This document shows, piece after piece, positions 16,027 to 57,052 of a stretch of 64,000 bases of DNA. Within the stretch, counting starts at the first letter, position 1. Each line of letters starts with the position of its first letter. The DNA is from an uncultured Sphingomonadaceae bacterium (GTDB lineage: Bacteria > Pseudomonadota > Alphaproteobacteria > Sphingomonadales > Sphingomonadaceae). The position numbers were made by a program, and so were the translations under genes. The notes below the pieces were generated by a model. The model searched no databases. It was not told where the DNA came from and saw nothing but the letters and a program-made list of their open reading frames with translations. Where the stretch lies: contig CANLQE010000004.1 of NCBI GenBank assembly GCA_947493215.1, positions 62,001 to 126,000 of the forward strand, in the 5' to 3' direction.

Positions 16027-17430
16027 ATGTCATCGCCGAATGATAATATCCGCCAGCCCTTAGGTCACTTCTCTTTGGCCCGTATAGGACAGCTAATCAC
16101 AGCTTTCTTGACGATGATCGCGGTGACGGTTCAACCGGTGGCGGCACAATCTATTCTTCGTGACGCAGAAACCGAAGCGTTGTTTAGCGACATGGTTTCC
16201 CCCTTGGTCGCCGTGTCAGAACTCGACGCCAAAGATGTTGAAGTCATCCTTATTAACAGCAGCCAGATCAACGCTTTTGTGGCTGGCGGGCAGCGCATGT
16301 TTTTTTATTCCGGTACCATTGAAGCTGCCGATAGCGCCGTTGAAATTCAAGGCATCATGGCGCACGAGCTTGGTCATATTACTGGCGGTCATATCATCCG
16401 CTTCGACGAAGGCATCAAAACCGCAACCGGCATTACAATTCTCAGCCTCATTTTGGGCGCCGCGGCCATTGCCGCTGGTGCTGGCGACGCGGGTGCGGGC
16501 ATATTAGCGGCCGGCCAACAAGCCGCGACGGGCAAGTTTCTTGCCTTTAGCCGGATTCAGGAACGCAGCGCGGATAGCGCGGGGGCGCGCTATTTATCCG
16601 GTGCGGGTATTACTGGCAAAGGTTCGATTGATTTTTTCAAAAAGCTACAAAATTACGAATTCCGCCTCGGTATTCCGCAGGAAGATAGTTATGGACGAAC
16701 ACACCCATTGTCCGGCGAACGTGTGTCCCTGCTCCGTGATGTTTATCAGGCTGATCCAGCATGGGACACGCCTGTAAATCCCGATATCGAAGAGCGGTTT
16801 CAACGGGTGAAAGCGAAACTGCTAGGATTTACCAACGAACCGGCTGTAACGCTGCGCAAATTTCCGGAGAGCGACCAGAGCGTGCCGGCACGCTATGCCC
16901 GCGCTTATGCTTGGCATAAAAGTGCCTATCCCGATCGCGCCTTGCTGGAAGTTAACAATCTTCTGAAAGACGCGCCAAATGACCCCTATTTCTTGGAATT
17001 GCACGGACAGATATTGCTCGAGTCCGGCAAACCGGCAGAAGCGATCGCTTCTTTGCGCAAAGCTGTGCGACTGACTAACAACCAACCGCTAATCGCCAGT
17101 CTCTTTGGTCACGCGTTGATCGCGACCGAGGATGATACCCATTTTGAAGAAGCACAACGCGTGTTGAAAGCTGCTGTGGTCAAGGACAACCGAAATCCCT
17201 TTGCTTGGTATCAGCTGGGCGTAGTCTATTCACAGCAAGGTGACATTCCGCGCGCGCAATTGGCAACCGCAGAAAGCGCGCTGTTACAACGCAACTATGG
17301 TAGCGCTATCCGCAGCTCCCAAATTGCCATGTCCGGCATTCCAGAGAATACACCAGAATGGATCCGCGCGCAGGATATCTCTTTGATCGCAAAAAACGAA
17401 TTTGAACGGTCAGACCGTCGGCGCCGGTAG
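16027..17430 (+). CDS. M48 family metalloprotease with TPR repeats (BepA-like)
   Basis: A 467-residue exported zinc protease. The signal peptide ends near PVAAQS. The metal site HELGH is at residues 113-117 and the third ligand is in FSRIQERSAD. A Gly/Ala-rich hydrophobic segment lies between them. The C-terminal third has TPR-like helices (DPYFLELHGQILLESGKPAE and the following copies). This order matches BepA/YfgC, a periplasmic protease-chaperone for outer-membrane protein assembly such as LptD. It precedes a DsbA-like gene by about 100 nt in the same direction, which suggests a periplasmic protein quality-control unit. Confidence 0.9.
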   Translation: MSSPNDNIRQPLGHFSLARIGQLITAFLTMIAVTVQPVAAQSILRDAETEALFSDMVSPLVAVSELDAKDVEVILINSSQINAFVAGGQRMFFYSGTIEAADSAVEIQGIMAHELGHITGGHIIRFDEGIKTATGITILSLILGAAAIAAGAGDAGAGILAAGQQAATGKFLAFSRIQERSADSAGARYLSGAGITGKGSIDFFKKLQNYEFRLGIPQEDSYGRTHPLSGERVSLLRDVYQADPAWDTPVNPDIEERFQRVKAKLLGFTNEPAVTLRKFPESDQSVPARYARAYAWHKSAYPDRALLEVNNLLKDAPNDPYFLELHGQILLESGKPAEAIASLRKAVRLTNNQPLIASLFGHALIATEDDTHFEEAQRVLKAAVVKDNRNPFAWYQLGVVYSQQGDIPRAQLATAESALLQRNYGSAIRSSQIAMSGIPENTPEWIRAQDISLIAKNEFERSDRRRR

Positions 17431-17526
17431 CCCTCTGGCAGGCAATATTCGCTTAACCTCTGTAACAAATGTGGACAAGTGGACGAAGCTCCGACAAGGA
17501 AGCCTTGTCTCTTGAATTGGAAGAAC

Positions 17527-18309
17527 GTGGAAAATACAAACAGGAAGTGGATGATTATGGCAGGTGGCGGTTTGGCCATAGCAGCGGCTGCGGCCGTCTG
17601 GTTTATGCAGACAGGTGGCGCATCAGCAAGCGACGAAGCGGCACAAGCGGCTTTAGCAGCGGGCATTGATAGCAAGGAACAAGCGGCGATCGAAGCTATT
17701 GTCCGGGACTATATTCTCAAAAACCCCGAAATCATTCCTGAAGCCGTCGAGATATTACAAACCCGGCAAAAAGCTCAGGCGATTAATGAGATTCGTAAAG
17801 ACATCGAGGCACCATTTGCCGGCACCGCCTTTGCCGGCAATCCAAATGGCGATGTCATTGTGGTTGAATATTCAGACTTTGCTTGTCCGTATTGCAAGCA
17901 GACCACAGCAGATATCGGCAGAGTATTGAAAGAAGACAAGAATATCAAAGTGGTATTCCGCGAGCTTCCCATCCTGAGCGAAGCCAGCAATGATGCGGCG
18001 CTGATGGCACTGGCTGCCGCCAAGCAGGGCAAGTATTTTGCTTTTCACAAAACCATGTTCGCGACTGGACGGCCAACCCCTTCCACAATCGCAAATGCCG
18101 CAAAGGAAGTAGGTATAGACATGGCCGCTGCACGGAAATTTATGGCGACGCCAGAAGCACAAAAAGAGCTACAGAATAATATCGAAATCGCTCGAAAGCT
18201 GCAATTTACAGGCACCCCGGCTTTTGTGGTCGGTAATGAGACAGCAGTTGGTGCGGTCGGCTATGATGGCCTCAAAGATCTGATCGCAAAGGCACGGGGT
18301 TCAAAATAG
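17527..18309 (+). CDS. DsbA family thioredoxin-fold protein, membrane-anchored or exported
   Basis: A thiol-disulfide oxidoreductase of the DsbA/Com1 type, about 260 residues. An N-terminal hydrophobic segment (IMAGGGLAIAAAAAVWFM) serves as anchor or signal. A helical linker with LKNPEIIPEAVEILQTRQ precedes the thioredoxin fold, which has the redox pair CPYC (C120/C123 from this start) in YSDFACPYCKQ and a cis-proline in FTGTPAFVVG. Such proteins form or isomerise disulfides in the periplasm. The start is uncertain: GTG 17527 is chosen, while GTG 17479 and ATG 17551/17557 (with AGGAAG upstream) remain possible. It follows the M48 protease gene. Confidence 0.85.
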   Translation: MENTNRKWMIMAGGGLAIAAAAAVWFMQTGGASASDEAAQAALAAGIDSKEQAAIEAIVRDYILKNPEIIPEAVEILQTRQKAQAINEIRKDIEAPFAGTAFAGNPNGDVIVVEYSDFACPYCKQTTADIGRVLKEDKNIKVVFRELPILSEASNDAALMALAAAKQGKYFAFHKTMFATGRPTPSTIANAAKEVGIDMAAARKFMATPEAQKELQNNIEIARKLQFTGTPAFVVGNETAVGAVGYDGLKDLIAKARGSK

Positions 18310-18482
18310 GCGCAAGGTGAGTGCGGCGAGACCTGCGCTCAAAGCCGTTGATCTCACGAGGTTTTCTTAAAGACCGGGCTTTATGAAAAAATCCATCTGG
18401 CTCTTTTTCAGTTTTGAATATTAGCCGGCGAAGCAAATATCATACGCCGATCCGTTCAGAATTGTGTGAACTCCGAGGGAAA

Positions 18483-44668: not shown

Positions 44669-44992
44669 CTTAAAAACACTCCTTCGGCCCAAAAGACCCC
44701 ATGACAAGATCATTGTCAAAAGTGACAAATGGTACGCGATTTGACGGTGGAATTCGTTTGAGCCAAATATTCATGGCGGCGCATGAAAGTTTTGAATCGA
44801 ATAGGTTCACTTTGATCATGAGCCATGGTTGCACAAAAGCGACTACGTGGGACAGCAAAATTGTGAAAATTCGCGCGCAGAAAGATCAACATCTCATTGA
44901 AAACGAACAATGGGCAGATGAACGTGAGAAGAATGTCAGGGGTTGGTTGACAATCATTGCCCCCCTAGCCTAATGGCTCGCCTCTATCCCGT
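44669..44992. other. Intergenic region before tRNA-Leu
   Basis: These 324 bases hold the upstream region of the leftward GST gene and the promoter side of tRNA-Leu. Short frames on both strands have no ribosome site and do not look like proteins. I see no strong hairpin. Confidence 0.45.
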
Positions 44993-45079
44993 GCCCAGAT
45001 GGCGGAATTGGTAGACGCGCTAGCTTCAGGTGCTAGTATTCGCAAGGATGTGGAGGTTCGAGTCCTCTTCTGGGCACCA
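44993..45079 (+). tRNA. tRNA-Leu (CAG anticodon), island attachment site
   Basis: An 87-nt class II tRNA with a long variable arm. The acceptor GCCCAGA pairs with TCTGGGC. The anticodon stem CTAGC/GCTAG encloses the loop TTCAGGT with anticodon CAG. The T-arm is GAGGTTCGAGTCCTC, and CCA is encoded at 45077-45079. Its 3' end is repeated, imperfectly, at 56024-56039, and a tyrosine integrase gene starts 91 nt further on. Confidence 0.96.
45063..45079 (+). repeat. Left attachment core (attL) within tRNA-Leu
   Basis: TCCTCTTCTGGGCACCA, the last 17 nt of the tRNA gene. The right-end copy is TCCTCTTCTGGCACCA, one G shorter. The tRNA stays complete, as expected when an element integrates at a tRNA 3' end and restores it. 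Confidence 0.75.
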
Positions 45080-45145
45080 CACTCGTTCGAGTTCCGCAGA
45101 AAACCTTGAAACCCTTGCTTTTCCTTAACTTATTACCTCAATTGA

Positions 45146-45167
45146 GGTACAAGAGAGGGTACAAAAG
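45146..45167 (+). promoter_or_regulatory. Left arm-type integrase site pair (GGTACAA motifs)
   Basis: GGTACAAG at 45146-45153 and GGTACAAAAG at 45158-45167 lie between the tRNA and the integrase start. The same two words recur at the right end. Paired direct motifs just inside both ends are what arm-type integrase-binding sites look like; the role is inferred. Confidence 0.5.
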
Positions 45168-45170
45168 TCA

Positions 45171-46907
45171 GTGGGAATTATTGTGAAATTTGTTTCAAAA
45201 AACCCCAATACCGGACGTCTGGATTACCGTAGAGTATTTCCTGCGGCCCTCCGACTACATATTCCTAGCCAGCCGAAGCAGTTGAAGCGCTCGTTGAAAG
45301 CAAACGATATAAACGCTCCCGGTGCATTGGACCGCTACCATGAGGCTCATGCAGAATATGAGAGGTTGGTTGCTTTGGCGGTGAAGAAAAGAGACCGCTC
45401 CTTTGATGTCTTGGATGCACCGAAAGTTGCCTATCTCGCTGCCATATTTGAGAATGAATGGCGAAAAGAAGCGGATTCTATCCGATGGCAAGGCGCAGAT
45501 GCCAAGTCACGGCAAGATGCGGGCGTTGATGAATGGTTGGATGAATTTCGGACATGGAGCACGGAAGGTGATCTCACAGAAGTCCACGAGCGATGGCGTG
45601 GTGATGCTGAGGCCCTCTTAGAGCGGCAACAGATCGTCTTGGACCCAAGTGACCTAGACAGGCTAGACCCGCTCTGTATAGCTCTAAACGAGGCTGCAAT
45701 AAGTGTCTGTGAGGCAATTCAGAAGGGAAGGCAGGGTAAGCTGAAAGTCGTTCCCGATACCCCGTTGCCCAACAGTTCTAGTAAGTCTGCCACGATTGGG
45801 GGATTGTCATTCGATTCCCGTGTGCGCTCTTATATGGAAAACCCGCGCTTGCAGGTGTCGCCTTCCGTCCGGCAAGGGAACCGGACAGCCTTGAGGTTTT
45901 TTAAAGAGGCGCACGGTGAGCCCGTCCCTGACGCTATCAGCCGAACACTGGTTTCGGAATGGTTGGACCTCATATCCAAGCGGCCTACGCGTCTTCCTAA
46001 GGCACAGCTGTCAATGCCCATAAGGCAGCTTGTTGAGCGATATAAAGGGCACCCAGAAGTACCTCGAATGTCCCCAAAGACACAAAGACAGCATATTTCC
46101 TCATTGTCCAAGTGCTGGAAAGACCTTGCCAGTGAAGGTCGTATATCTGTTGAACTACAAAACCCGTTCGCAGGTCACCGTATGGCTAAGCCTGTCCCCT
46201 CCTCAGCTACCAAAGGCTTCGCCACTGAAGAACTTCAAGCCATCTTTCGGCTTCCGATCTTCACCCAAGGCGAGCGGCCACGAGCGGGGAAGGGAGAGGC
46301 TTGTTTCTGGATACCGCTCATCCTGTTGTGGACTGGCGCAAGGCCTGAGGAAGTAGCGCAGCTATTAGTGGATGACGTTTTTAAGGACGCGATTACTGGA
46401 GTTTGGTTGATCCGTTTCACCAATGAGGGGCGGCATCCTCATAAGGGGCCGCAGGTCCTGAAAACAGGCGAGGCGGGCCGCAGGACTTTTCCGGTGCCCA
46501 AGGTTCTTCTGGACTTAAATCTGCCGGACTACCTAGCGCACCTTGAAGCGACGGGGGAGGTGGCACTGTTCCCTAAGTTGCGGACGCGAGGAGAACGAAA
46601 CGTTCTTTTCGCTGGGTTTAGTGAGTGGTGGTCAAATCATCTTCAAGAGGCACAAATACTGCCTAAGGACCGCAGGGCATCCAGAGAGTTCCGGCACGTC
46701 TGGGCGACCGCTGCTAGGGCTTCCGGTATCCCGCAAGACGCCCGAATGTACATCATGGGTCATAAGAATCCCCAGACGGAAATTAGTGATCGATATGGCG
46801 TCGCAACTCCCTTGGGCAACCATATCCAGAAATTGGAATTTCCAGATCTTGATTTATCTAAAATATTGCCGTGGGGTCACAGTTGGTCCTCTACTAAGGA
46901 GTCTTGA
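45171..46907 (+). CDS. Tyrosine site-specific integrase
   Basis: A 578-residue tyrosine recombinase. The C-terminal catalytic domain shows the first arginine in LWTGARPEEVAQLLVDDV, the H-x-x-R-equivalent region as SREFRHVWATAARASG, the second His in MGHKNPQTEISDRYG and the nucleophile Tyr in that same segment (about residue 542). The long N-terminal part carries a core-binding domain (SPSVRQGNRTALRFFKEAHG). The box II histidine position is unusual, reading FRH-V-W-A-T rather than HxLRHT. The gene starts with GTG 45171, next to tRNA-Leu, and should excise and integrate the island. Confidence 0.92.
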   Translation: MGIIVKFVSKNPNTGRLDYRRVFPAALRLHIPSQPKQLKRSLKANDINAPGALDRYHEAHAEYERLVALAVKKRDRSFDVLDAPKVAYLAAIFENEWRKEADSIRWQGADAKSRQDAGVDEWLDEFRTWSTEGDLTEVHERWRGDAEALLERQQIVLDPSDLDRLDPLCIALNEAAISVCEAIQKGRQGKLKVVPDTPLPNSSSKSATIGGLSFDSRVRSYMENPRLQVSPSVRQGNRTALRFFKEAHGEPVPDAISRTLVSEWLDLISKRPTRLPKAQLSMPIRQLVERYKGHPEVPRMSPKTQRQHISSLSKCWKDLASEGRISVELQNPFAGHRMAKPVPSSATKGFATEELQAIFRLPIFTQGERPRAGKGEACFWIPLILLWTGARPEEVAQLLVDDVFKDAITGVWLIRFTNEGRHPHKGPQVLKTGEAGRRTFPVPKVLLDLNLPDYLAHLEATGEVALFPKLRTRGERNVLFAGFSEWWSNHLQEAQILPKDRRASREFRHVWATAARASGIPQDARMYIMGHKNPQTEISDRYGVATPLGNHIQKLEFPDLDLSKILPWGHSWSSTKES

Positions 46908-46909
46908 AT

Positions 46910-48031
46910 CTACTGGCTACCACCAGCGTCTAAAGTGTATTGAAAGCTCAATGGCTGGAGTTGCTCATCGCGGATTAGCCATGGCTGAAAGACTACCAAT
47001 TCTCCGGAACTGGCTATCGTTGTTTGTCGATCCAAATCGATAGAATGAACCACGAGCAAAGCATTTGTTGGAAAACGGTTTTGATGAAGTTCCACTTCAT
47101 TTTTGGTTACGAGAATTGTTCCTAAGCCTCCAGTGGTGCCTTTAACTTCGATAACATATTCAACACCGTCTTTTTTTGCCTCAAAGTCACAAGACTTATT
47201 CTTATGAACATCCCTGTAATCATATCCTTCCCGCTGCAGCCAATCTTCCGCGATCTCCATCGCTCTAGTTTCAACAGCAATTCTTTGCGGGCCTGACAGT
47301 CCCCGTCCTTGGCCTCGTGTCTTTGATTTGGAACTATTCGGACGAGCAAGCGCTTGAATAGCGTCTACAGCTTCGACGATTTCCGGAGAAGGAGCTCCCG
47401 GCTCTTGGCCGCTTTGAGCAGCCGAGTAAAGATGCTCAAGCATGCGAAGGGCTGTGCTCAGGTCTTTTTGGAGAGTTGCTTCATTGGGGATATTGTTGGT
47501 GTCATACATTATTGAAAATGCGGTAGTTGCCTCATAGGCTCTAGCCAGGTCTTCTTTGGAGCCTAAATCCAAGCCCTCTGACATGCCGGCTCTCGCGGCT
47601 TCATCGCCCCCTATTTTTCTGGCCCAAGTCATCAAAGCTGCTGCTTCTGTTGCAGCTCTAGGCTTAAAGGTCATCCCGTCCCAAATCGTTGACCCATGGC
47701 CAAGCACAAGAGCCACGCCGCTGGCGTCAGGCCTAAATAAGTAAACAACGTACCAGCCTACTCTGGGTGAAGGCGATAGTTCGGGATTAAAAATGCGTAC
47801 CCAAGGCACCCGCGATTTTTGGCCGGTTCCGTCCTTACCTTGAACCTTCAATTCGCCCACAATCCGGTCACCAATTGCAGTTTCGAGTACACCGCTCGCG
47901 CGTATCCAATTTGGGATTTCGTTGCGAATAACGAGCCCGCGTCGATCCATGGCTGGCGTTTTCAGAGATGAATAGTCAAGCTGCAATAACAGCACATCTT
48001 CTAAATGTTTCTTCAATCTGTTTGCTCCCAC
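46910..48031 (-). CDS. MrcB_N (DUF3578) / DUF3883 domain protein, likely nuclease
   Basis: A 373-residue two-domain protein. The N-terminal half (VGWYVVYLFRPDASGVALVLGHGST) resembles the MrcB_N/DUF3578 domain of McrBC-type DNA-sensing restriction systems. The C-terminal half is DUF3883-like, with a PD-(D/E)xK core: Asp in KSCDFEAKKDGVEY and E-x-K in VIEVKGTTGG. A lysine/arginine/glycine-rich linker joins them. Such proteins are found in defence islands and may recognise modified DNA and cut it. No AAA GTPase or methyltransferase gene accompanies it, so it may act alone or with the divergent gene on the other side of a 174-nt gap. Domains are inferred by eye. Confidence 0.75.
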   Translation of the reverse strand: MGANRLKKHLEDVLLLQLDYSSLKTPAMDRRGLVIRNEIPNWIRASGVLETAIGDRIVGELKVQGKDGTGQKSRVPWVRIFNPELSPSPRVGWYVVYLFRPDASGVALVLGHGSTIWDGMTFKPRAATEAAALMTWARKIGGDEAARAGMSEGLDLGSKEDLARAYEATTAFSIMYDTNNIPNEATLQKDLSTALRMLEHLYSAAQSGQEPGAPSPEIVEAVDAIQALARPNSSKSKTRGQGRGLSGPQRIAVETRAMEIAEDWLQREGYDYRDVHKNKSCDFEAKKDGVEYVIEVKGTTGGLGTILVTKNEVELHQNRFPTNALLVVHSIDLDRQTTIASSGELVVFQPWLIRDEQLQPLSFQYTLDAGGSQ

Positions 48032-48205
48032 TCAACCTCCACCAGCCAAATAGTCGATAAAGATTGAAACGCTTTTCACAAAGGCTAATAGTTGCGCTTT
48101 CCTATATATACCTCTTGAAGACACGGTCTTGATTGTCACTTGATGGCTATCGCGCAATTGCGGGACTGTGCAACAAGCATCGAATAGCAAAAAGGGTTGA
48201 ATTGA

Positions 48206-49744
48206 ATGACAAAAGAAGTGGTGCGAGGAACAGGTTTCACCGAATCCGAGCGCTATCTTGCTTCGCTCGCGGACAAAGCGTTCCTGAGGCTGTGGTCGTA
48301 TCCGAACACCTTCATTGACAAAAAATCTGGCGGTAAAGGAGACGGTAAAGAACTAGCAGACCTTTTGGTCGTGTTTGGGGATGATGTAATCATCTTTAGC
48401 GACAAGGAGATTGAATGGCCGAGCAGCGAGGACAAGGATTTAGCGTGGTCACGTTGGTATCGTCGTGCTGTTGCGAAATCTGCGGATCAAGTTCGGGGCG
48501 CTGAACGCTGGCTAACCAAATTCGAGAAACGTGTCTTTATTGACAAATGTTGTGAGCACCCATTCCCGATTGACTTACCTCCACTCGCTAGCCGAAGGGT
48601 GCACGGCATTGTTGTTGCGCTCGGAGCAAACGACATGGCTAGGCAACACTTCAACGATCCGCGTGGAACGTTCGCAGTGATTCCTTCAATTGAGGGCAAT
48701 GATCACGTAAATAAAACCGCAAAGGATTATCATCCATTCGCAATTGGCGACGTCAATCCAAACGGTTCATTTGTTCATGTTTTCGACCCCGTGGCATTGG
48801 ACCTTGTCTTAGCGGAATTGGATACTGTTTCAGACTTTTTAGACTATCTAACAAAACGAGAGGCGTTCATCCGATCAGGGCGTTTGCTGGTGGCGGGGGG
48901 AGAGGAAGACCTTGTCGCTGCGTTCATTCAGAACGGCACTCCGACCGGTGAGCGCTCCTTTTTACCCGCTGACTTGCCGGCCGACATTACCGATCATTCT
49001 ATCGTGATACCGGCTGGTGAATACGATGGCTTTATTGCACTGCCGGAGTATCGACGGAAGAAAGAGGCTGATGAGGTTTCCTACAATTGGGATCGGTTGA
49101 TTGAAATATTTGTTGAGCACGTTTTAGCCGGAACGTCAGTAGAGATATTGGAGACCGCGCCTGACGTAACTTTAGCTGAGCGCGGATTGCGCTTTATGGC
49201 CGCAGAAAACCGGATCTATCGTCGAGTTCTTGGTCAAAATGTAGAAGAGGCGCTTCAAGTTGCAGAAGCAGAAAAAGCAACGCGCTTCATCCGAAATATG
49301 ATTCCAACTTCGGAGCCGAGGCAACACCCGGTAGGGTATGTTTTTCTAATCCTGGCATATCCTGGTGATGACGTTCTTGAAAATGGGTACACTCAGTATC
49401 GCGAACACAGGACGTCAATGCTGCAGACTTATTGTTATAATTTGTTTGATATGCGGTCTGATCTTGAAACCGTAGTTGGCATCGCTGTTGATGCTTCAGA
49501 GAAGGTGACTGGGCGGCCTGGCGGATCGGAAGACCTGCTAGTGGTAGCGAAGCCCGAGTGGACTGTAGAATTTAAAGACCAGTTCGAGCGGGCAAGAAAG
49601 CACTATGGACTGAAGCCGAGCAGTGAATTGCGTACACGCCATGCGCGGCATGACGAGTTCCCACTGGAGGGCGCTCCTTTCGCATCTCGCCAACAACGTC
49701 GTGCAGCTGAACGAAAAGCAGCGAAAAAACGGCGGAAAATTTGA
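48206..49744 (+). CDS. Unrecognised protein, possible N-terminal nuclease-like domain
   Basis: A 512-residue protein that I cannot name. The N-terminal region contains GKELADLLVVFGDDVIIFSD (E49, D52, D66) followed by KEIEW, then SRWYRRAVAKSADQVRGAER. This recalls a nuclease core that some defence-island proteins share, but the last element reads S-D-K rather than D/E-x-K, so it is uncertain. Later parts are mixed alpha/beta. The C-terminus ends in a basic helix (RQQRRAAERKAAKKRRKI). An AGGG lies before the ATG. It is transcribed divergently from the MrcB_N/DUF3883 gene, suggesting shared regulation. Confidence 0.7.
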   Translation: MTKEVVRGTGFTESERYLASLADKAFLRLWSYPNTFIDKKSGGKGDGKELADLLVVFGDDVIIFSDKEIEWPSSEDKDLAWSRWYRRAVAKSADQVRGAERWLTKFEKRVFIDKCCEHPFPIDLPPLASRRVHGIVVALGANDMARQHFNDPRGTFAVIPSIEGNDHVNKTAKDYHPFAIGDVNPNGSFVHVFDPVALDLVLAELDTVSDFLDYLTKREAFIRSGRLLVAGGEEDLVAAFIQNGTPTGERSFLPADLPADITDHSIVIPAGEYDGFIALPEYRRKKEADEVSYNWDRLIEIFVEHVLAGTSVEILETAPDVTLAERGLRFMAAENRIYRRVLGQNVEEALQVAEAEKATRFIRNMIPTSEPRQHPVGYVFLILAYPGDDVLENGYTQYREHRTSMLQTYCYNLFDMRSDLETVVGIAVDASEKVTGRPGGSEDLLVVAKPEWTVEFKDQFERARKHYGLKPSSELRTRHARHDEFPLEGAPFASRQQRRAAERKAAKKRRKI

Positions 49745-50077
49745 CTTAAACGTCAATCTACTCGCAAGCTATGCCGTCTCTATCGCGGCTTAACTGCCTG
49801 CCGTAGCCTCACTGTCCCTGTAGATCACAAGTCAGCATATATAAGTCGAATCTCTGGGCGTTTTGAAGTTTGACAGTTTCGGTCGAGCTGATTGCTAATA
49901 AAAAGTGGTTTGCTTGGTCTTGCAGAATAAAGATTGGCCGTATCGGCTAATGGACGAAGTTCTGGCCTGTTCTTGGAGATAAAGAACGAGAGAAAGGTTA
50001 GCTTTATTGCGAAATACTCGGAATTAATTGACCCGCTCGTCAAGATTCACTATATGTTCTATAGGAGCCGTACCGAC
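49745..50077. other. Intergenic region before the Panacea gene
   Basis: Some 333 bases without a convincing gene. A frame continuous with the Panacea gene is open from 49934, but the extra N-terminus is not conserved-looking. The preferred start at 50078 has a GGAG before it. The promoter of the pair is presumably here. Confidence 0.4.
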
Positions 50078-50515
50078 ATGACAATTACATCAGCTGCCGC
50101 CTTACGCAGAATGTGCGAGGTTAAAGATTGGAACATTACCAATCTTGAAGCCAACAAACTGCTGTATTTTGCGCAAATGATTGCGTTAGGCGAATTTGAT
50201 AAGCCTCTTGTTGATGAATATTTTGAGGCTTGGGACCTCGGCCCGGTCTTGCCGGGAGCTTACCACAAAGCAAAAATGTTTGGCGATAAGCCCATCAAGA
50301 AATTTATTTTCTCATCGCGTGGGCCAATTGCATCTTGGGAAGCGATTTTTCAGCGAACTCTCGAAGAATTTGGGCACCTAAAAAGCGGTCAGCTTGTTGC
50401 AGATTCACACTGGCCCCAAGGTGCATGGGCGGAACATTATACACGGGGAGCGCGAGGCGTAGAAATTCCGAATGACGACATCCTCAAAGAATACAGACGC
50501 CGAACAGCTAACTAA
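50078..50515 (+). CDS. Panacea-domain (DUF4065/SocA-like) protein, putative antitoxin
   Basis: A 145-residue protein of the Panacea/DUF4065 type. LEANKLLYFAQMIALGEFDK, then LVDEYFEAWDLGPVLPGAYH and KAKMFGDKPIKK are the recognised core. Panacea domains serve as antitoxins against many unrelated toxins, including small membrane proteins, and as SocA-like adaptors. Start ATG 50078 is chosen because a GGAG lies upstream. The 3' end overlaps the next gene by 44 nt, which ties the two together. I infer a type II-like pair with that gene product as the toxin. Confidence 0.85.
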   Translation: MTITSAAALRRMCEVKDWNITNLEANKLLYFAQMIALGEFDKPLVDEYFEAWDLGPVLPGAYHKAKMFGDKPIKKFIFSSRGPIASWEAIFQRTLEEFGHLKSGQLVADSHWPQGAWAEHYTRGARGVEIPNDDILKEYRRRTAN

Positions 50516-50840
50516 TCCGCCTGTTATACATCAGGGTTCACTTGCAAAGGTCGCAGAACCGACTGTCGGTGATATTCAAGTAGGCGAATTACAGGGCAAG
50601 CTGGCTAAGTCAGAAGATGACCGCAAAGAAGAGCGTTTCTTGTGGTTTATGGTCAGTGGTGCGTTATTTGTTCTCCTCAGCTTTATGGCCGGAGGTGCCG
50701 CCGCTGGAGGAGTTATTTCACTAATTTACATTGGAATGCTCTTGGTTCTCAGTCGCAGATGGGGCTTTGAAGACTTGTGGGAGGCATTGTATGCAGCCAA
50801 AAGCCTGTTGCCCGGCGGCAAAGAAAAAGACGAGGAGTAA
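50472..50840 (+). CDS. Small two-helix membrane protein, candidate toxin of the Panacea pair
   Basis: A 122-residue protein. The first 50 residues are polar and acidic. A hydrophobic hairpin follows (FLWFMVSGALFVLLSFMAGG, then AAAGGVISLIYIGMLLVLS). The tail is amphipathic (GFEDLWEALYAAKSLLPGG) and ends in a charged segment. The start lies inside the Panacea gene, in another frame. Small membrane proteins paired with Panacea antitoxins are known to depolarise membranes. I infer a toxin role from pairing and topology only; no sequence signature proves it. Confidence 0.7.
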   Translation: MTTSSKNTDAEQLTNPPVIHQGSLAKVAEPTVGDIQVGELQGKLAKSEDDRKEERFLWFMVSGALFVLLSFMAGGAAAGGVISLIYIGMLLVLSRRWGFEDLWEALYAAKSLLPGGKEKDEE

Positions 50841-50846
50841 TCCTTT

Positions 50847-51425
50847 TTACAAGGCTATCTCGCCTGAACTACCTGTATATGTTAGCTCCCAAGATGCCTG
50901 ACCGAGGCCACCACCGCCCATACCACTGTCAAACCACTTAAATCGCTTTGTAACACCGTTTTGAGTTCCCCAGACGGCGGTGCTTCCCTGTCGTCTAAAA
51001 AGAGAACCTCGCTTGTTTGTTGTTATGCTTGGTTGCCCATATTTTGCCGATAAGGCCGAAAGGACTTTGTCGGAACAACGACCCCCTAAGCTGCCTTTCC
51101 CTTTGACTTTTACAGCATCGACGCGTCCGCTTTCGTGCTGAATTTCAACCTCTGCTTCGCAGCCTTCGATAATGACAACATCTTCAACTTCCGTTTGCTT
51201 CATCTTATGCCATTTTATTTTCTTACCGTCTTTCGGATAGAAGGCTCTAACTTCATCAATGGTCATGTCTGCTCTAACTTTATCCCAAAGCACGGGACGG
51301 TTATCTGTTGGGGTTTCGTCTACTGTTTGAACAACTACTTGCGTACTTTTGATACTCTGACCAGCTTCTGATGCCGCGGCCACTTGAGCCACAGTTGAAA
51401 TAGCCATAATGACTGTTGAAATCAT
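50847..51425 (-). CDS. Hypothetical secreted protein
   Basis: A 192-residue protein that I do not recognise. It begins with a short hydrophobic signal-like segment (MISTVIMAISTVAQVAAAS). The mature part has ADMTIDEVRAFYPKDGKKIK, a segment like those that open small periplasmic ligand-binding domains. It contains two cysteines (EGCEAEVEI and GGRCSDKVL) that may pair, and a Gly-rich C-terminal region (WFDSGMGGGGLGQASWELTY). The start has GGGGGG 8 nt upstream. It converges with the small membrane-protein gene, 6 nt apart. A role in the island is not evident. Confidence 0.65.
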   Translation of the reverse strand: MISTVIMAISTVAQVAAASEAGQSIKSTQVVVQTVDETPTDNRPVLWDKVRADMTIDEVRAFYPKDGKKIKWHKMKQTEVEDVVIIEGCEAEVEIQHESGRVDAVKVKGKGSLGGRCSDKVLSALSAKYGQPSITTNKRGSLFRRQGSTAVWGTQNGVTKRFKWFDSGMGGGGLGQASWELTYTGSSGEIAL

Positions 51426-51624
51426 TGTTCATCCCCCCTCGATAATAAAACCTAATTACTCAATCTAACCTTACACTTCAATTGGATAACTTACAAAAAA
51501 GCCCAATGTATGGAATATTTTGGCTATGAATTTTATATAGACCCGCCTTTATTTGCAAAAGCAATATAGTCACCGGGTAGATAAAGTGTTAATCTGATGA
51601 TTATTCTTGCGAGGAGAGCAAAAA

Positions 51625-52080
51625 GTGACCCAGACAGTCGTCGAAGAAGATCAACCCGTTGACCCACCTGAACAGATCAATATTGATTGGTTTCTGCAAA
51701 GTACGGTAGAGTTAATTAATAGAACAGGGTTGCAAATGGGCATCACTTTAACGGTAGGAGGCGCGAAAATAGCAGGTACGTTGGTCAGCGGTAAGAGCTA
51801 CTTTGAAGATATCAGCTCCGCAGTTAATGCTGTTTCTAAAAAGCCTGATGATATCCCGAAGGCGCTGAGCGATTTGTGGTCTTCTTATACCGAGTTTTAT
51901 GAGAAGCCGGAAGATGCGGACGATAGCTGGGCCCCTCCTCCCGCTGGTTACATTCACCTAAAGGATGCCTATTACTTTGAACCCGGAGTTGATCGTATGC
52001 CAACCAACGAAGGACTGACTTGGCGAGGACAGCTGTCGTCCGTGGATGGATTTAGCATAGGAGCTCTTCAACCCGGCTAA
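51625..52080 (+). CDS. GvpU-like protein (gas-vesicle accessory family)
   Basis: A 151-residue protein from GTG 51625 (GGAG upstream). The segment GLQMGITLTVGGAKIAGTLV followed by SGKSYFEDI, and the C-terminal AGYIHLKDAYYFEPG and WRGQLSSVDGFSIGAL, recall the GvpU family. GvpU is encoded in gas-vesicle clusters of some bacteria, but homologues often occur without gas vesicles, and no gvpA is visible here. The true role is unknown. The assignment rests on memory of the family's shape, so it is tentative. Confidence 0.55.
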   Translation: MTQTVVEEDQPVDPPEQINIDWFLQSTVELINRTGLQMGITLTVGGAKIAGTLVSGKSYFEDISSAVNAVSKKPDDIPKALSDLWSSYTEFYEKPEDADDSWAPPPAGYIHLKDAYYFEPGVDRMPTNEGLTWRGQLSSVDGFSIGALQPG

Positions 52081-52179
52081 TCTTCGTCAAACGTTTCTAT
52101 GCTTCTGACCTCTTACGGCTCTTAGTACACGTAAGGGGTCCATTAAGAGGCCACTCATCTGCCCGTTTATGTGTCCTTG

Positions 52180-53475
52180 TTATGATCTAATCATAGCATA
52201 AACCTTAGGTCCTCCGGTCTCCATCATGAGCACTTTTGAATAGGCATCCAACATAGCTTCTCTCAAAGAATCTTGATGGTGCAATGCTACAATAAAACTA
52301 TCATGGACAGGAAGGCATGTGACCCCTTTTCTGGATAGTTGCACTAGAACTTCGCAGGCAATTTGGCTGTCGATATACTGAAGTTCCGTTCCTTTGCCAG
52401 AGCCTAGCCACTGGTTGATGTCGGCGTAGCAACACTCAACGGCCTTACGGAGTTTAGCAGTAGTCCAACCTTCACTGAGCTGTTCTCTGATCTTTGGCTC
52501 AGGAGAGGGCATTCGCTTCCCATTGTCCAAATTCACCAAAACCAGCAGACACCACTTCACCGCTTCCCTCATACCTTCGAGCCCCTCAATGGCGTATAGG
52601 TCATCCTGTGAGGGTGCTTCCAAGCCTGATAGGTGATAGCAAAGTCGCAGGTGCAATGCAGAGTAGTCCAGTTCAACAGTTGGCTCTCCATCTATCGTGA
52701 TTAGCTTCCTACTATCCTGCCTTTCACCTATCCACCAACCGCCATAGAACCGACCGCCGCGATCAAACCGGCCATCATTGAACACGCGGTATAGACGCTT
52801 TGCAGTTAGATCGGGCTTAGATTTACCTTCTGGACCCGATAAGCTAATAGCGGCGCTGCCTATCAGATCGTTTAGCGTCTCAAGCTGTTTGCGCATCCGC
52901 TTAGTATCCGCAGTCTCCATATAGTCCTGCCAGTTCTTTCCGGCATCCTTCAGTCGGATGAGTTCCCCTTCCTCTCTTCGCCCAATATGATCCGGCTGGG
53001 CACCGTGAGTGCCCTCTAAGAAGGAAATGAGTTCAGGGGTGGCCCTAAGACGTGAACGCTCTCCGGCATTACCCCAAGCATCCTGCAGCTTATCAGACCT
53101 GCGGTAGTATCCAGCTGTATGTTCGGCATACCCATTGGCGGTAAGAAAGTCCGCCGAGGTCTTTACCGTTGTCAGGCTCCCCACACTGTTCCGATAGCGC
53201 GGCGCAACATTGTAGTCGTTGCTGTTGCGGGAATAGCCGAGCGCTAACGAGGGGCTTGTTGAATAGGCAGCATACAAGTCCGCCACCATTGCTTCGAGTG
53301 TCACCGCAAGATTGTTACGGTCCCGTCCCTTCCGCTTCCGCTTTCGGGTTACCTCTGTGGCTTCAAGTTGACCTAGAAGGTCCGACACGGCCTCAGTGAA
53401 GGGGGTGCGCACACCCCTTCTGTCCAATCTCATCAATCGGCTGTTATCACGGTCAATGGGAGTGTAGTCGTGCAT
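52180..53475 (-). CDS. Compact protein with family-A polymerase-like palm motifs
   Basis: A 431-residue protein with three motifs in the order and spacing of family-A DNA polymerases and single-subunit RNA polymerases. Motif A is PTVELDYSALHLRLCYHLSG (D270), compare DYSQIELR. An O-helix-like motif B is REAVKWCLLVLVN, with R303-x3-K307-x7-N315 (PolA has R-x3-K-x7-YG). Motif C is TCLPVHDSFIVALH (D392), compare VHDE and T7-type IHDSFG. The start ATG overlaps the serine-recombinase stop by one base (TAATG), so the two are translationally coupled. No exonuclease or primase domain is visible. The polymerase role is inferred and unproven. Confidence 0.6.
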   Translation of the reverse strand: MHDYTPIDRDNSRLMRLDRRGVRTPFTEAVSDLLGQLEATEVTRKRKRKGRDRNNLAVTLEAMVADLYAAYSTSPSLALGYSRNSNDYNVAPRYRNSVGSLTTVKTSADFLTANGYAEHTAGYYRRSDKLQDAWGNAGERSRLRATPELISFLEGTHGAQPDHIGRREEGELIRLKDAGKNWQDYMETADTKRMRKQLETLNDLIGSAAISLSGPEGKSKPDLTAKRLYRVFNDGRFDRGGRFYGGWWIGERQDSRKLITIDGEPTVELDYSALHLRLCYHLSGLEAPSQDDLYAIEGLEGMREAVKWCLLVLVNLDNGKRMPSPEPKIREQLSEGWTTAKLRKAVECCYADINQWLGSGKGTELQYIDSQIACEVLVQLSRKGVTCLPVHDSFIVALHHQDSLREAMLDAYSKVLMMETGGPKVYAMIRS

Positions 53476-54026
53476 TACTTTGCTGATCCTTCTAGTGCTC
53501 GATAGACACTGGCACGGCCAATTCCCATCTCCCTCGCTATCTCTGAGGCTCCCATGCCTTCTGCTTTCAACTGCTGGACCTTTGAGGCATCTATAGAAGC
53601 TGGACGACCCTTGTACTTGCCTGCAGCTTTGGCTTTGGCGATGCCTTCCATCTGCCGTTCTTTCCGGATATCCAGCTCAAACTCAGCAAAACTGGCTAGG
53701 ATGTTCAACAGCAGCTTACCGTCTGACCTTGTGGTATCAATGGCCCCTTGCTGTAAACAGGTGAACCCTGCATCCTTAGCGTCCAGCCGGTCCACAATGT
53801 TCCGCAAGTCCATCACTGAGCGGGCCAGCCGGTCCAACCGGGTTACTACAAGAGCATCGCCGTCCCGCACGAACTCCAAGGCTTCCTCAAGGGCCTTACG
53901 GTCCTGTTGCGATGCCCCGCTTCTTTTCTCAGCGAATATCTTCTCACAGCCAGCGGCCCGTAAGGTCTCCTCTTGAATGTCCAGCGATTGTCCCACGGTG
54001 CTTACCCTTGCATATCCAACCAACAT
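53475..54026 (-). CDS. Serine recombinase (resolvase/invertase family)
   Basis: A 183-residue resolvase-type recombinase. It begins LVGYARVSTVGQSLDIQ, with the nucleophile Ser in that segment. Further catalytic and dimer parts are VVTRLDRLARSVMDLRNIV and LLNILASFAEFELDIRKERQ. A C-terminal helix-turn-helix (GMGASEIAREMGIGRASVYR) binds DNA. Start ATG 54026 fits homologues, and an upstream ATG at 54047 falls inside a putative binding site. Its stop is fused with the start of the polymerase-like gene. It probably acts on the TGTCTCA sites just upstream, and may repress its own promoter. Confidence 0.93.
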   Translation of the reverse strand: MLVGYARVSTVGQSLDIQEETLRAAGCEKIFAEKRSGASQQDRKALEEALEFVRDGDALVVTRLDRLARSVMDLRNIVDRLDAKDAGFTCLQQGAIDTTRSDGKLLLNILASFAEFELDIRKERQMEGIAKAKAAGKYKGRPASIDASKVQQLKAEGMGASEIAREMGIGRASVYRALEGSAK

Positions 54027-54039
54027 AGTCTGTTTATCC

Positions 54040-54122
54040 TGTCTCATTAGGCTTTAAGACCTATGACCTACACTGTCTCATATATCTCGTCAATACCCTA
54101 ATGAGACAATTATTGTGTCTCA
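54040..54122. promoter_or_regulatory. Putative res-type site of the serine recombinase
   Basis: TGTCTCA occurs at 54040-54046, 54074-54080 and 54116-54122, and as TGAGACA at 54102-54108. TGTCTCATTAGG (54040-54051) and CCTAATGAGACA (54097-54108) are perfect 12-bp inverted complements. The half-sites resemble the TGTCYRNTA consensus of Tn3/gamma-delta resolvases. They span the recombinase promoter, as resolvase sites often do. Confidence 0.65.
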
Positions 54123-54281
54123 CCAACATGGACCGCATGGCTATACCTGTCCGAAACATCTAGGGCTGTGGCCTAAATGGGTTTTTGAAGTAAGGTCCAT
54201 CGGCGGACCAACTAAACGCTATGGCCACCATACATTGCTGCGGCAGCTTGCTATTCCGCACTATAGAGATAGATTGAGTTG

Positions 54282-55031
54282 ATGTCTCAGATTCAACTCG
54301 CTGCTCCTTCATTCCAGTCATTACATATAAAAATGCGCTTCGGCTCACAGGATTTATCAACCGGCACAGGTTTTGTGGTGCAGAGTGGAAGTGGTCCTTT
54401 GCTTGTGACAAACCGCCACAACGTAACTGGACGAAATCCGCATACTGGCCAGCCACTCTCAAAGACGGCCGGAGTACCTGACAACATTGTGATCATGCAT
54501 AATCAAAAGGGACGACTCGGTAATTGGATCAGCCGTGAAGAGCCTTTATTCGTGGCCGAAAATCAACCAAGGTGGCATGAGCATCCTCAAATGGGCGCGA
54601 AAGCCGACTTTGTGGCGTTGCCCCTATCCAATACTATCGATGTCGATTTCTACATGTATGACCCGTCACAGCCCGGGGCTGACATTCTGGTTGGCCCAGC
54701 GGACGTTTTGAGCGTGGTCGGTTTCCCGTTTGGCCTAACAGGTGGCGGAAGTCTTGCAATATGGGCTACCGGCTTCGTAGCCTCTGAACCGGATTTGCCG
54801 GATCAACCTACCTTCCTGATCGACTGTCGCAGCCGACAAGGTCAATCGGGATCGGCTGTGATCGCTCACCGTGGGGGTGGTATGGTCGCCATGGCCGGTG
54901 GCGGTAGTTCGGTATTCAGCGGCCCAGTTACGCGCTTTTTGGGAATCTACAGCGGTCGGATCAATGCCGAGTCCGATTTGGGTATTGTGTGGAAGGCCTC
55001 GGCAATCGCGGAACTGATCGCAGATGTATAG
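54282..55031 (+). CDS. Trypsin-like serine peptidase
   Basis: A 249-residue chymotrypsin-fold protease without an obvious signal peptide, so probably cytoplasmic. The catalytic triad can be read in order: His in LLVTNRHNVTG, Asp in KADFVALPL and Ser in DCRSRQGQSGSAVIAH. The N-terminus has GTGFVVQSGSGPLLVTNRHN, the usual first barrel. Trypsin-like peptidases occur as effectors or regulators in some mobile and defence loci. It is transcribed rightwards, opposite to the recombinase, from beyond the res-like site. No clear target or partner is nearby. Confidence 0.85.
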   Translation: MSQIQLAAPSFQSLHIKMRFGSQDLSTGTGFVVQSGSGPLLVTNRHNVTGRNPHTGQPLSKTAGVPDNIVIMHNQKGRLGNWISREEPLFVAENQPRWHEHPQMGAKADFVALPLSNTIDVDFYMYDPSQPGADILVGPADVLSVVGFPFGLTGGGSLAIWATGFVASEPDLPDQPTFLIDCRSRQGQSGSAVIAHRGGGMVAMAGGGSSVFSGPVTRFLGIYSGRINAESDLGIVWKASAIAELIADV

Positions 55032-55563
55032 CGTTTCGTACATCTGCCCGTAAGTTCAACTAACACACTCTGTGTGCTCCTCCCGCCCGTTGAAACCTCA
55101 GAAAATAGCAGGCATGCCGTTGTATTAAAACAAGCTAGTCGATAGGCCCCTCAAGGGCCTCGTTAGCCGCCTATCCTCATCGCTAAATGAAACACTAAGT
55201 AAATAATGACCGCCCGAGTGGTGGCGAATGTCTAGCGGAGCCTGCCCCTAACGTACCCAGTATTCCACAGGAGCCTCAAGCTGTCTGCGGCCGCACAAGA
55301 CCGCTTCGTTTATGCCTTATCGATATGTATTTGTTCTCAAAGCCTTCGCGGCCTTTGGGTCCCTTAGCGGGTCCCCTATTCGTCTGCCGATGGGACCTGT
55401 CAGAAATCGACCCAGCACAGTTCAAAATTGGCTGGTTCGCTGAGTTGATGGAGATTTTGGTCCGAGCTTGAGTAACAAGCAATGATATTATGGTGAATTT
55501 GAGTACCCGATTATTTTCATCAGTCTAGCAGCTAATCTAGCCATTAGAGGGGCTTTGTCTGCA
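55032..55563. other. Gene-poor stretch inside the island
   Basis: About 530 bases with no convincing gene. A small hairpin (AGGCCC at 55144-55149, GGGCCT at 55155-55160) lies about 110 nt after the protease gene and lacks a U-tract. Further on are Gly/Cys-codon-rich fragments and short direct repeats of GGGTCCC around 55355-55375. It may be decayed sequence or carry regulatory RNA that I cannot identify. Confidence 0.4.
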
Positions 55564-55896
55564 TCAACTTGAAATCATCATGGCTGCAATAACTCCCAAA
55601 ACAATTGGCGCACCGAACAGAAGCGTCTTCTGCTTCCGTGATAAGCTGATTTTGTTTTTGAAGGCTTCAATATTGAAACGGACAGTTGGATGGATTTGTT
55701 CGTACCTCTCTTTTTTCTTCTGCTTGTCATAGTCCTCCGATGTCATGCCGCATTTATCTAGCATCCACTTATCCAAATGAGGTGTCGGTGTTCGGGGGGA
55801 ATTCCTCAGGGGGCCATCATGGCCTCCGGGTGTAAAGCGATCCCAGATCATCCCTATGATGGCTAAGCCTATCAGACCTGTTATCATGTATATCAT
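55564..55896 (-). CDS. Small hypothetical membrane protein at the right end of the island
   Basis: A 110-residue protein, family not recognised. The N-terminus is one membrane helix (MIYMITGLIGLAIIGMIWDR). The middle is polar, with KQKKKERYEQIHPTVRFNIE. The C-terminus is a second helix (LLFGAPIVLGVIAAMMISS). This leaves a cytoplasmic or periplasmic loop of about 65 residues. Start ATG 55896 is chosen; a longer open frame upstream would run across the right attachment site, so that part is unlikely to be coding. It is the last gene before the island end and points inward. Confidence 0.6.
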   Translation of the reverse strand: MIYMITGLIGLAIIGMIWDRFTPGGHDGPLRNSPRTPTPHLDKWMLDKCGMTSEDYDKQKKKERYEQIHPTVRFNIEAFKNKISLSRKQKTLLFGAPIVLGVIAAMMISS

Positions 55897-55941
55897 TTCG
55901 TGCTTTCTGTCGGTTCCCCAAGTTGTTCTCTGCTTGAATAG

Positions 55942-55962
55942 GGTACAAAAGTAAGGTACAAG
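55942..55962 (+). promoter_or_regulatory. Right arm-type integrase site pair (GGTACAA motifs)
   Basis: GGTACAAAAG at 55942-55951 and GGTACAAG at 55955-55962 repeat the two words found at the left end, in the reverse order but the same orientation. They lie about 60-80 nt inside the right attachment core. Binding by the integrase or a directionality factor is inferred. Confidence 0.5.
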
Positions 55963-56023
55963 TAAGACAGATTTAATGTTAATAAATGTTGAAAAACAAG
56001 GGTTTATTTCAAGGCGGGGCCAA

Positions 56024-56039
56024 TCCTCTTCTGGCACCA
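56024..56039 (+). repeat. Right attachment core (attR)
   Basis: TCCTCTTCTGGCACCA copies the tRNA-Leu 3' end apart from one missing G. It marks the likely right boundary of the island. The next chromosomal gene (a GST) starts at 56226. The gap 55897-56225 otherwise shows only a diverged copy (about 56131-56160) of the palindromic repeat family seen near the P450 gene. Confidence 0.75.
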
Positions 56040-56225
56040 TTTTTCCTCATAAGCTCACATACGACCACGCTGTCGCGCTTGGCTATCCCCTACGCCCCGC
56101 CTTTCCTGCCCTTCTCAGTATAACGCGACTGCCCGCTGTGCGCGAAAAAGCGGACATTAATACTGTCGGACCGGTCGAATATAGCTTATCGGACACGGAC
56201 AGCGTTTGTTTACAATGGGAACCCG

Positions 56226-56987
56226 ATGACAAATATAAAATTATATGGCTATTCAACCAGCCCATTTGTGCGGAAGGTCGCGGCCTGTCTTTATTATAAG
56301 AAACTGACGTTCGAACATATCCCCGTCAATCCCGCAAATCCCAAAGAAACCATTGGATTCACAGGTGCAAACCAAGTTCCGGTTTTGATGATTGGTGACG
56401 AATGGAAGGTGGATTCGACGCCGATTGCGCTATGGCTGGATGATCGTTTTCCGCATCGCCCGTTGCTGCCTGAAAACCAAGAGATGCGGACAAAGATTCT
56501 CAATATTGATCGCTGGCTGAATGAAAGTTTTCTGCCCTCCGGTTTCCGAGGCGCCGTTGATGGCAAGAATAATCTTGCTTTCAAATTTATGGGCTGGCGT
56601 CTTGCCGCAATTGTCAGTGCCCATACTCCGCTTCCCGAAAATATCCGCAATCAATGGCCCGACTTGCTGCGCAAAGCGCCGTTTATTCTTGAAATGGTCG
56701 AACAATTGGACCGTGATGAAAGCCTGTCGGACATGCAAATGCGTTTGGGTATGGAAATGATCAAGCATCTGGGAAACGGCCCCTTCTTTGGCGAGTCCGA
56801 TAGCCCCACTTTGGTCGACTTTGCCTTGTTCCAGCAACTCGTCTTTCCTTACATGGCAGGTTTAACTGATAAGATGCAGATAGACGCCGTTCCGCCGCTA
56901 AAAGCATGGAGCCGCAATGTCGCAAAACATCTTCCCAAAAACCCTGTTCTGATACCGGATAGTTTTGTCGTAGCCTATTTGGATTAG
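56226..56987 (+). CDS. Glutathione S-transferase-like protein
   Basis: A 253-residue protein with a GST-type N-terminal thioredoxin domain: IKLYGYSTSPFVRKVAACLY, the cis-Pro segment NQVPVLMIGDEW and DSTPIALWLDDRFP (the usual ES/DS motif). The C-terminal helical domain is longer than usual and includes SPTLVDFALFQQLVFPYM. The SPFVRKV start is like GST families that lack a classic catalytic serine and act as glutathione-dependent detoxification or maleylacetoacetate isomerase-type enzymes. It is the first gene right of the island and probably belongs to the ancestral chromosome together with the GST left of tRNA-Leu. Confidence 0.88.
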   Translation: MTNIKLYGYSTSPFVRKVAACLYYKKLTFEHIPVNPANPKETIGFTGANQVPVLMIGDEWKVDSTPIALWLDDRFPHRPLLPENQEMRTKILNIDRWLNESFLPSGFRGAVDGKNNLAFKFMGWRLAAIVSAHTPLPENIRNQWPDLLRKAPFILEMVEQLDRDESLSDMQMRLGMEMIKHLGNGPFFGESDSPTLVDFALFQQLVFPYMAGLTDKMQIDAVPPLKAWSRNVAKHLPKNPVLIPDSFVVAYLD

Positions 56988-57052
56988 GAGAGCTGCGTCC
57001 TAACGACCGGCCAAACGACCGACGCACCTTGCTATTTTGGCCTCATTATATA

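Follow-up and report, generated by a model that had tools for sequence, protein, structure and literature searches.

A 431-amino-acid (aa) protein encoded in a 64,000-nucleotide (nt) stretch from an uncultured Sphingomonadaceae bacterium (GenBank assembly GCA_947493215.1, contig CANLQE010000004.1, positions 62,001 to 126,000; hereafter, the window) is, as judged by its predicted structure and the alignment of its homologs, a small, well conserved relative of the family-A DNA polymerases. Its gene lies on a genomic island and is coupled to the gene of a small serine recombinase. The protein is probably the TV-Pol of this integrative island, that is, the primase-polymerase of the element, which works with the coupled recombinase, and it is possibly RNA-competent. 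Rather than a new system, this is one of a known kind, with testable peculiarities.

An open reading frame (ORF) check agreed with the coordinates, lengths, and strand that an earlier note, made from the sequence alone, had given for both genes (Table 1). The junction (...CAAAGTAATGCAC...) has the one-base overlap described there, with a single A common to the recombinase stop and the polymerase start (TAATG). The translation likewise contains the residues singled out in that note, namely, D270 within VELDYSALHLRL, the R303-x3-K307-x7-N315 array, and D392 within LPVHDSFIV; a further feature, the box GGRFYG-WWI upstream of motif A (WWQ in the family), had been overlooked.

The AlphaFold model of the polymerase, built from 77 sequences, has a predicted template modeling score of 0.87 and a predicted local distance difference test (pLDDT) score of 89.7. 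With this model, Foldseek retrieved 87 PDB chains at E <= 0.001, and all 50 matches listed are family-A DNA polymerases; query-normalized TM-scores of 0.25 to 0.35 and root mean square deviations mostly above 10 indicate that only the core of the protein matches these structures. In the viral library, the 11 top-ranking rows (E <= 6.5e-17) are proteins close in length to the query; one of these, from a Rheinheimera Barba phage, is named “DNA polymerase”. The later informatively named rows are mostly PolA-type DNA polymerases, with one phage RNA polymerase. Profile-profile alignment (hhalign) with 14 PolA sequences shows the motifs to be co-linear with those of Pol I (E 0.0055, with a probability of only 6.6), pairing GGR with TGR, WW(Q) with NLQ, D270 with the motif A Asp, R303 and K307 with the Arg and Lys of the O-helix, N315 with Tyr, and HD392 with HD; R256 falls one residue past the last Arg of the aligned Pol I upstream element. 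The proposal of a compact family-A palm protein is thus backed by AlphaFold, Foldseek, and the motif order. The palm match is seen at the level of the fold and is absent from Pfam, where no polymerase model matches: the protein has no hit in Pfam (E up to 10) or NCBIfam, and neither PF00476 (DNA polymerase I; E up to 1 for the family members) nor the T7-like RNA polymerase model matches it or any of 24 members. A PDB search with the single sequence returned only one row, at chance level, and a profile search returned 17 weak rows, 13 of which are DNA polymerase I entries (E 1.2 to 2.4). PHROGs places the protein in phrog_4756, to which no function is assigned there, and PADLOC contains neither a match for the polymerase nor a model for the recombinase-polymerase pair.

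The phrog_4756 profile matches 32 of 385 genomes of the same class and 0 of 14 control genomes, and a match to the polymerase itself occurs in 4 of 98 near relatives, the genome of the window included. By tblastn, 116 of 50,697 phage records (89 from Vibrio, 13 from Aeromonas, and others, with identity below 60% throughout) and 4 of 72,556 plasmid records match; scans of viral and genome contigs with the single protein as query yielded no relatives. From named genomes, a pattern scan recovered 190 relatives, of which 80 were kept, and viral contigs added 4. Four duplicate loci were excluded, as were 18 of the 137 hits, either because they were fragments or because they fell outside the limits (380 to 700 aa, 180 bits). 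The alignment of the remaining distinct full-length sequences has 115 members. Of these, the pattern scan contributed 77, the genome survey 28, and plasmid or phage records 5; 4 more are viral, and the last is the window protein. Both copies at locus L064 (positions 7588-9381 and 16537-18330 of a 21-kb contig, about 9 kb apart and accompanied by a fragment) are counted, with one residue different between them. The pattern scan selected for the peptides FYG[GP]WWQ or [LT][QM][NFY][IRL]DS..., which inflates conservation at positions 243 to 249 and 365 to 374 and over-represents closer relatives; the 38 members that came from elsewhere were also counted separately. The tree of the family is a single FastTree with many long branches.

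Both palm aspartates, D270 and D392, are found in 115/115 members, and the search for homologs lacking one of them, suggested in the earlier note, produced none. Other positions are nearly as constant: G241 (114), K307 and R256 (112 each), N202 (111), R303 (110), R242 and H391 (109 each), the fingers Asp D292 (106), and N315 (101). When only the 38 members obtained by routes other than the pattern scan are considered, the counts are 38 for each Asp, 35 each for K307, R303, and R242, 34 for H391, and 25 for N315. Chance motifs are ruled out by the presence of both aspartates in every member, and a degraded enzyme is discounted in view of the retention of the catalytic residues.

Table 1. Features of the polymerase gene, its recombinase partner, and the island in the window
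Feature	Position	Strand	Evidence
TV-Pol-type family-A polymerase (putative), 431 aa	52180..53475	-	ORF; phrog_4756 E 1e-47; AlphaFold pLDDT 89.7; Foldseek to family-A polymerases
Small serine recombinase (resolvase/invertase type), 190 aa	53475..54047	-	PF00239 E 7.9e-40; HTH_7 E 3.7e-7
N-terminal domain of polymerase, aa 1-221 (limit approximate)	52813..53475	-	aa 1-226 folded separately, pLDDT 85.4
Winged-helix-like part of N-terminal domain, aa 101-166 (suggestive only)	52978..53175	-	Secondary structure and weak Foldseek/profile matches
GGRFYGGWWI box, aa 240-249	52729..52758	-	hhalign to Pol I TGR...NLQ; R242 109/115
Motif A, aa 268-277: D270; H275 = Klenow E710 position	52645..52674	-	hhalign and family alignment
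Motif B, aa 303-315: R303, K307, L311 (F762 position), N315 (Y766 position)	52531..52569	-	hhalign and family alignment
Motif C LPVHDSFIV, aa 388-396: D392	52288..52314	-	hhalign (Pol I, T7-type RNA polymerases) and family alignment
Block absent from two relatives (island, approximate limits)	44875..57046	.	Flanking-gene distance and alignment breaks
tRNA-Leu(CAG)	44993..45079	+	tRNA search
Tyrosine integrase, 578 aa, tRNA end of island	45171..46907	+	PF00589 E 9.9e-5, 22.6 bits, under curated cut-off 27.1

The link of the polymerase with recombinases on an island is borne out by the neighborhood survey. The fetched stretches of 120 loci encode a tyrosine recombinase (one BLAST cluster) in 72 cases and a serine recombinase (another cluster) in 24. 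In the 29 survey loci (34 were fetched; 4 duplicates, tallied under the pattern scan, and L076, without a hit, are not included; some contigs end early), a recombinase of either type lies within 2 kb of the polymerase in 16 and within 8 kb in 19; tyrosine recombinases account for 13 and 18 and serine recombinases for 7 and 9 loci, respectively. Given 209 Phage_integrase hits across the 83.9 Mb of 22 background genomes, chance would place one within 2 kb in about 0.37 and within 8 kb in about 1.2 of the 29 loci. Tyrosine and serine recombinases are found within 8 kb in 49 and 10 of the 80 pattern-scan loci. Gene calls were crude (ORFs of at least 80 aa, taken greedily), and the recombinase clusters are single-linkage BLAST clusters, part of which were covered by a Pfam check: in 118 neighbor proteins from 26 loci, the families include Phage_integrase (15), DUF6538 (7), Resolvase (6), RNase_H (3), and Methylase_S (3), among the 25 of 83 families listed. 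Restriction-modification genes lie near the polymerase in some loci. No single gene order is common to the loci, and the small ORFs upstream of the polymerase show no conservation across them.

The pair with a serine recombinase, put forward as a unit in the earlier note, is not conserved as such: tyrosine recombinases are the more frequent type within 8 kb, and in the nearest tree row, L043, a tyrosine recombinase occupies the coupled slot, with a 4-base overlap (GTGA) with the polymerase start. The placement of L043 next to the window protein joins long branches, and the two proteins share 36% identity. Mapped onto the family tree (one FastTree, no shuffled control), the 58 members with an assigned recombinase type, 17 serine and 41 tyrosine, require at least 12 changes of type. 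A strict resolvase-polymerase system is ruled out by this swapping of types. L156 encodes two different full-length polymerases (8923-10602 and 14716-16464) that face each other, and the interval that separates them encodes tyrosine and serine recombinases.

The island is a block whose flanking genes are 2.5 kb apart in the same-genus genomes G019 and G020 versus 12.95 kb in the window; relative-to-window alignments end near 44.87 kb and restart near 57.05 kb. In other relatives, the flanking genes are 3.6 to 20.7 kb apart, so the site takes other inserts too. Its description as tRNA-borne holds in part: a tRNA precedes the integrase and the block is absent in two relatives, but none was found in the matching stretch of 8 relatives (the G017 stretch ends before the far flank), and a search downstream within the window for att-type repeats of the tRNA region (at least 14 nt) found none. 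The tRNA-Leu(CAG) is located elsewhere in all 7 relatives searched, so the left end of the island involves a rearrangement; the tRNA-Leu(CAG) at the island edge is the only full-length match in the window's genome. By Pfam, the block encodes the tyrosine integrase, an MrcB_N/NOV_C protein (46910-48031, a restriction-like domain combination), a Panacea-domain protein, and a trypsin-like peptidase (PF13365; 54279-55031), which lies beyond the resolvase and matches the PADLOC candidate PDC-S45 (E 2.2e-11). A 512-aa island protein (48206-49744) has no Pfam match.

The part of the polymerase upstream of the conserved core was also modelled separately. Foldseek found no match for it at E <= 0.001; the 50 matches listed (E 0.05 to 0.49) are mostly winged-helix proteins, including MarR, Fur/Zur, GntR, PadR, and eS10, which is also a winged helix. 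The two best rows of the PDB profile search (E 0.29 and 0.39) are metal-dependent regulators matched in this domain. In Pfam, 2 of 73 N-terminal domains gave single matches near E 0.009 and the others none at 0.01, the window's domain being among those without a match. Together with the model, these matches suggest that the domain contains a winged helix.

In the favored reading, the N-terminal domain (perhaps winged-helix) would bind the DNA of the element, and the palm/fingers core would synthesize primers along with short strands of DNA or of mixed RNA/DNA on the element in its excised or recombining state. Excision, resolution, or integration of the element, with handling of its ends, would fall to the coupled recombinase, and completion of its replication to a host polymerase. 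The enzyme would most likely prime or copy the element's DNA during excision, transfer, or integration. We infer the polymerase chemistry from the residues, the priming from the relative CcPol, and the RNA competence from the loss of discrimination residues and from RNase HI neighbors, both described below.

Several observations weigh against this reading. To our knowledge, no activity has been reported for any member of this TV-Pol subset, and the host genome encodes its own PolA besides. H275 and N315 are less uniform outside the pattern scan (22/38 and 25/38). In phages, the polymerase is accessory, since all 6 phages examined have another PolA-type hit, over the curated cut-off in 3 of them (weakest E 6.5e-5). 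Three members from one family of 1.4-Mb genomes, perhaps SAR11-like, L072 to L074, lack K307 and H391. Finally, the primase-polymerase argument depends on a D5_N helicase. In 27 genomes chosen for having the polymerase, rather than all such genomes, a search limited to D5_N among the helicases found this domain in 2: in G379 at a distance of 134 kb, and in G214 on a different contig, where it lies near the contig end, so that adjacency to the polymerase cannot be excluded. As far as the contigs allow, no D5_N is thus found beside the polymerase, and another helicase or a host helicase would be needed.

A tentative alternative, which we consider less probable, is that the protein acts chiefly as an RNA polymerase or RNA primase: a small single-subunit enzyme using ribonucleoside triphosphates (rNTPs), whose RNA would be removed by RNase HI in some elements. 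In the part of PMC7581432 that deals with CcPol, Klenow E710 and F762 are given as the residues that discriminate against ribonucleotides, and CcPol, which uses only deoxyribonucleoside triphosphates (dNTPs), as retaining both. In the present family, the E710 position is Glu in 0/115 and His in 96/115 members (H275 in the window), and the F762 position holds Leu in 83/115 (L311) and Phe in 2/115. The Y766 position is Asn in 101/115 (N315) and Tyr in 1/115; His at the first position and Asn at the last co-occur in 93/115. T7 RNA polymerase has, by spacing from the motif residues, Gly542 and Met635 at the E710 and F762 positions. The absence of the two discriminating residues is consistent with a relaxed sugar choice. 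Outside the pattern scan (n = 38), the counts are 22 for His, 12 for Leu, and 25 for Asn, so the loss of Glu is general and its replacement less uniform than in the full set; the 12/38 for Leu tells against the RNA enzyme. In hhalign with 7 T7-type RNA polymerases, only 51 C-terminal columns, spanning the motif region, align (E 0.0018, probability 14.8). Two RNA polymerase PHROGs are weakly matched by 5/24 and 4/24 members (best E 0.015 and 0.0059), but a DNA polymerase PHROG is weakly matched by 2/24 as well. The motif B Tyr, Y639 in T7 RNA polymerase, is replaced by Asn here, unlike in the T7 enzyme, and DNA polymerases make up all of the PDB fold matches listed.

RNase HI genes bear on the same question. 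RNase HI is encoded in 26 of the 27 genomes, with a second copy in 3 of them (L050, L060, and L061), lying 36, 162, and 227 bp from the polymerase on the same strand, each with a Pfam RNase_H match; the only extra RNase HI genes in these genomes are those adjoining the polymerase. A search of all fetched loci with one RNase HI as the query found nothing beyond these three. The polymerases of L050, L060, and L061 are far apart on the tree (path 4.4 to 5.0), and the RNase HI gene lies upstream of the polymerase at one locus and downstream at the other two, so more than one acquisition is probable. While such neighbors would suit an enzyme that makes RNA, they occur at 3 loci only, and the L061 RNase HI has, by eye, Asn at two of the four positions that we take to be its catalytic acids, which suggests that it may be inactive.

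It is rather unlikely that the enzyme is an accessory repair or anti-phage enzyme carried as island cargo and not the replicase of the island. The accessory status of the phage copies would fit such a role, as would the variable neighborhoods of the phage genes described in the text of PMC11348598, the restriction-modification genes near some loci and, within the limits given above, the lack of an adjoining D5 helicase. On the other hand, the association with recombinases is far above background, although island cargo would show some association as well, and the polymerase has no PADLOC match. The six phages have 1 to 3 copies each, 10 in total, two of which have internal stops: W01 128683-129951 and W05 120038-121306 (Vibrio phages OX241444.1 and OX241423.1) are interrupted by one TAG and one TAA, unlike other copies in the same phage, which have intact frames. 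The annotation of this gene is “hypothetical” in each of seven phage regions inspected; empty phage sites were sought, and the regions proved too variable for a clear outcome.

That the polymerase fold has decayed into a noncatalytic, DNA-binding partner of the recombinase is highly unlikely: the O-helix Tyr-Gly is lost and K307 and H391 are missing from L072 to L074, but the conservation of both metal-binding aspartates, R303, and K307 across the family (see above) argues against it. The L072, L073, and L074 proteins are diverged, with a fixed gene order (the same neighbor clusters), both aspartates kept, Cys at K307, and Arg or Lys at H391; this version is perhaps a domesticated, non-polymerase one. 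Very improbable, too, is that the island corresponds, within family A, to a retroelement or self-priming element, in which the polymerase, no longer excluding ribonucleotides, would make or copy RNA, RNase HI (where present) would remove the hybrid, and the recombinase would insert the product. DIRS elements combine a reverse transcriptase, RNase H, and a tyrosine recombinase; the layout would be similar, but built on a DNA polymerase I palm.

Among the known systems, the favored primase-polymerase reading fits TV-Pol. The TV-Pols, described by Iyer, Abhiman and Aravind (2008, PMC2579912), are family-A polymerases of minimal size that mobile elements carry, and a primase-polymerase role in replicative elements has been proposed for them; one subset has an N-terminal domain and an adjoining gamma-delta resolvase, lambda-type integrase, or transposase (PMC2579912). 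Matched to that description, the present family has the minimal family-A core with the two palm Asp, an Arg before motif A, the fingers Asp (D292), and RxxxK (R303 and K307), all at the frequencies given above, as well as the N-terminal globular domain (a separate adjacent gene in L149), gamma-delta resolvase or lambda integrase neighbors, restriction-modification genes nearby, and occurrence in Alphaproteobacteria. In our reading of the alignment, R242, which pairs with the Arg of the Pol I TGR, may be the template-hairpin Arg of PMC2579912. The N-terminal domain differs, being predicted there as all-helical and modelled here as helices plus a winged-helix-like part; the long helices of the model (24-42, 50-73, and 189-207) can be set against the two-helix coiled-coil thumb of TV-Pol. 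A further difference, from the D5-linked TV-Pol subset, is that no D5 helicase gene or fusion adjoins the polymerase in the 27 genomes, as far as contigs allow. Ma-LMM01 has a published TV-Pol. In the first 50 kb of its 162-kb genome, the best-scoring ORF overlaps gp030, which may be the published protein, beside transposase genes, with a weak E of 1.8, and hhalign with this ORF aligns other parts of the protein (E 0.1).

Pipolins carry a tyrosine recombinase, tRNA sites, and restriction-modification cargo. They resemble the island in being integrative elements with their own polymerase, as outlined in the relevant parts of PMC7385651 and PMC9710591. In contrast to the family-A fold seen here, this polymerase belongs to family B, which rules out membership of the island among pipolins. 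CcPol-MP of the SCC elements, a biochemically tested primase that uses only dNTPs, is another mobile-element family-A polymerase near serine recombinases; according to the sections of PMC7581432 and PMC10061031 that describe it, it retains E710 and F762 and has an OB-fold partner and a helicase, whereas the present family has lost both of these residues almost completely.

The earlier note took the pair for a system not yet described; both TV-Pol (PMC2579912) and, in the text of PMC11348598, divPolA2 already describe this kind. In that text, divPolA2 of Caudoviricetes (2024) is left open as a repair DNA polymerase or an RNA polymerase, its phage genes have variable neighborhoods, and TV-Pol is cited as small-virus background without being tied to divPolA2. 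The divPolA2 protein AUR84708 belongs to the same sequence family as the window protein (hmmsearch E 6.5e-38), and both are extra to a regular polymerase, with 1 to 3 copies per phage. In contrast to the island genes, divPolA2 is reported in phages only, and the words “recombinase” and “integrase” are absent from the PMC11348598 main text. A literature search for phrog_4756 found no mention of it. In the parts of the main texts on TV-Pol, divPolA1/divPolA2, and phrog_4756 that were covered, there is no report of the loss of E710/F762, the link to RNase HI, the swapping of serine and tyrosine recombinases, or the union of TV-Pol with divPolA2. If the TV-Pol assignment holds, the bacterial island genes (TV-Pol, 2008) and the phage genes (divPolA2, 2024) become one family for study. 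The DNA-or-RNA polymerase question left by divPolA2 becomes testable at H275, L311, and N315, with CcPol as the dNTP-only comparison, and the use of rNTPs would show a Pol I fold becoming a primase or RNA polymerase in mobile DNA.

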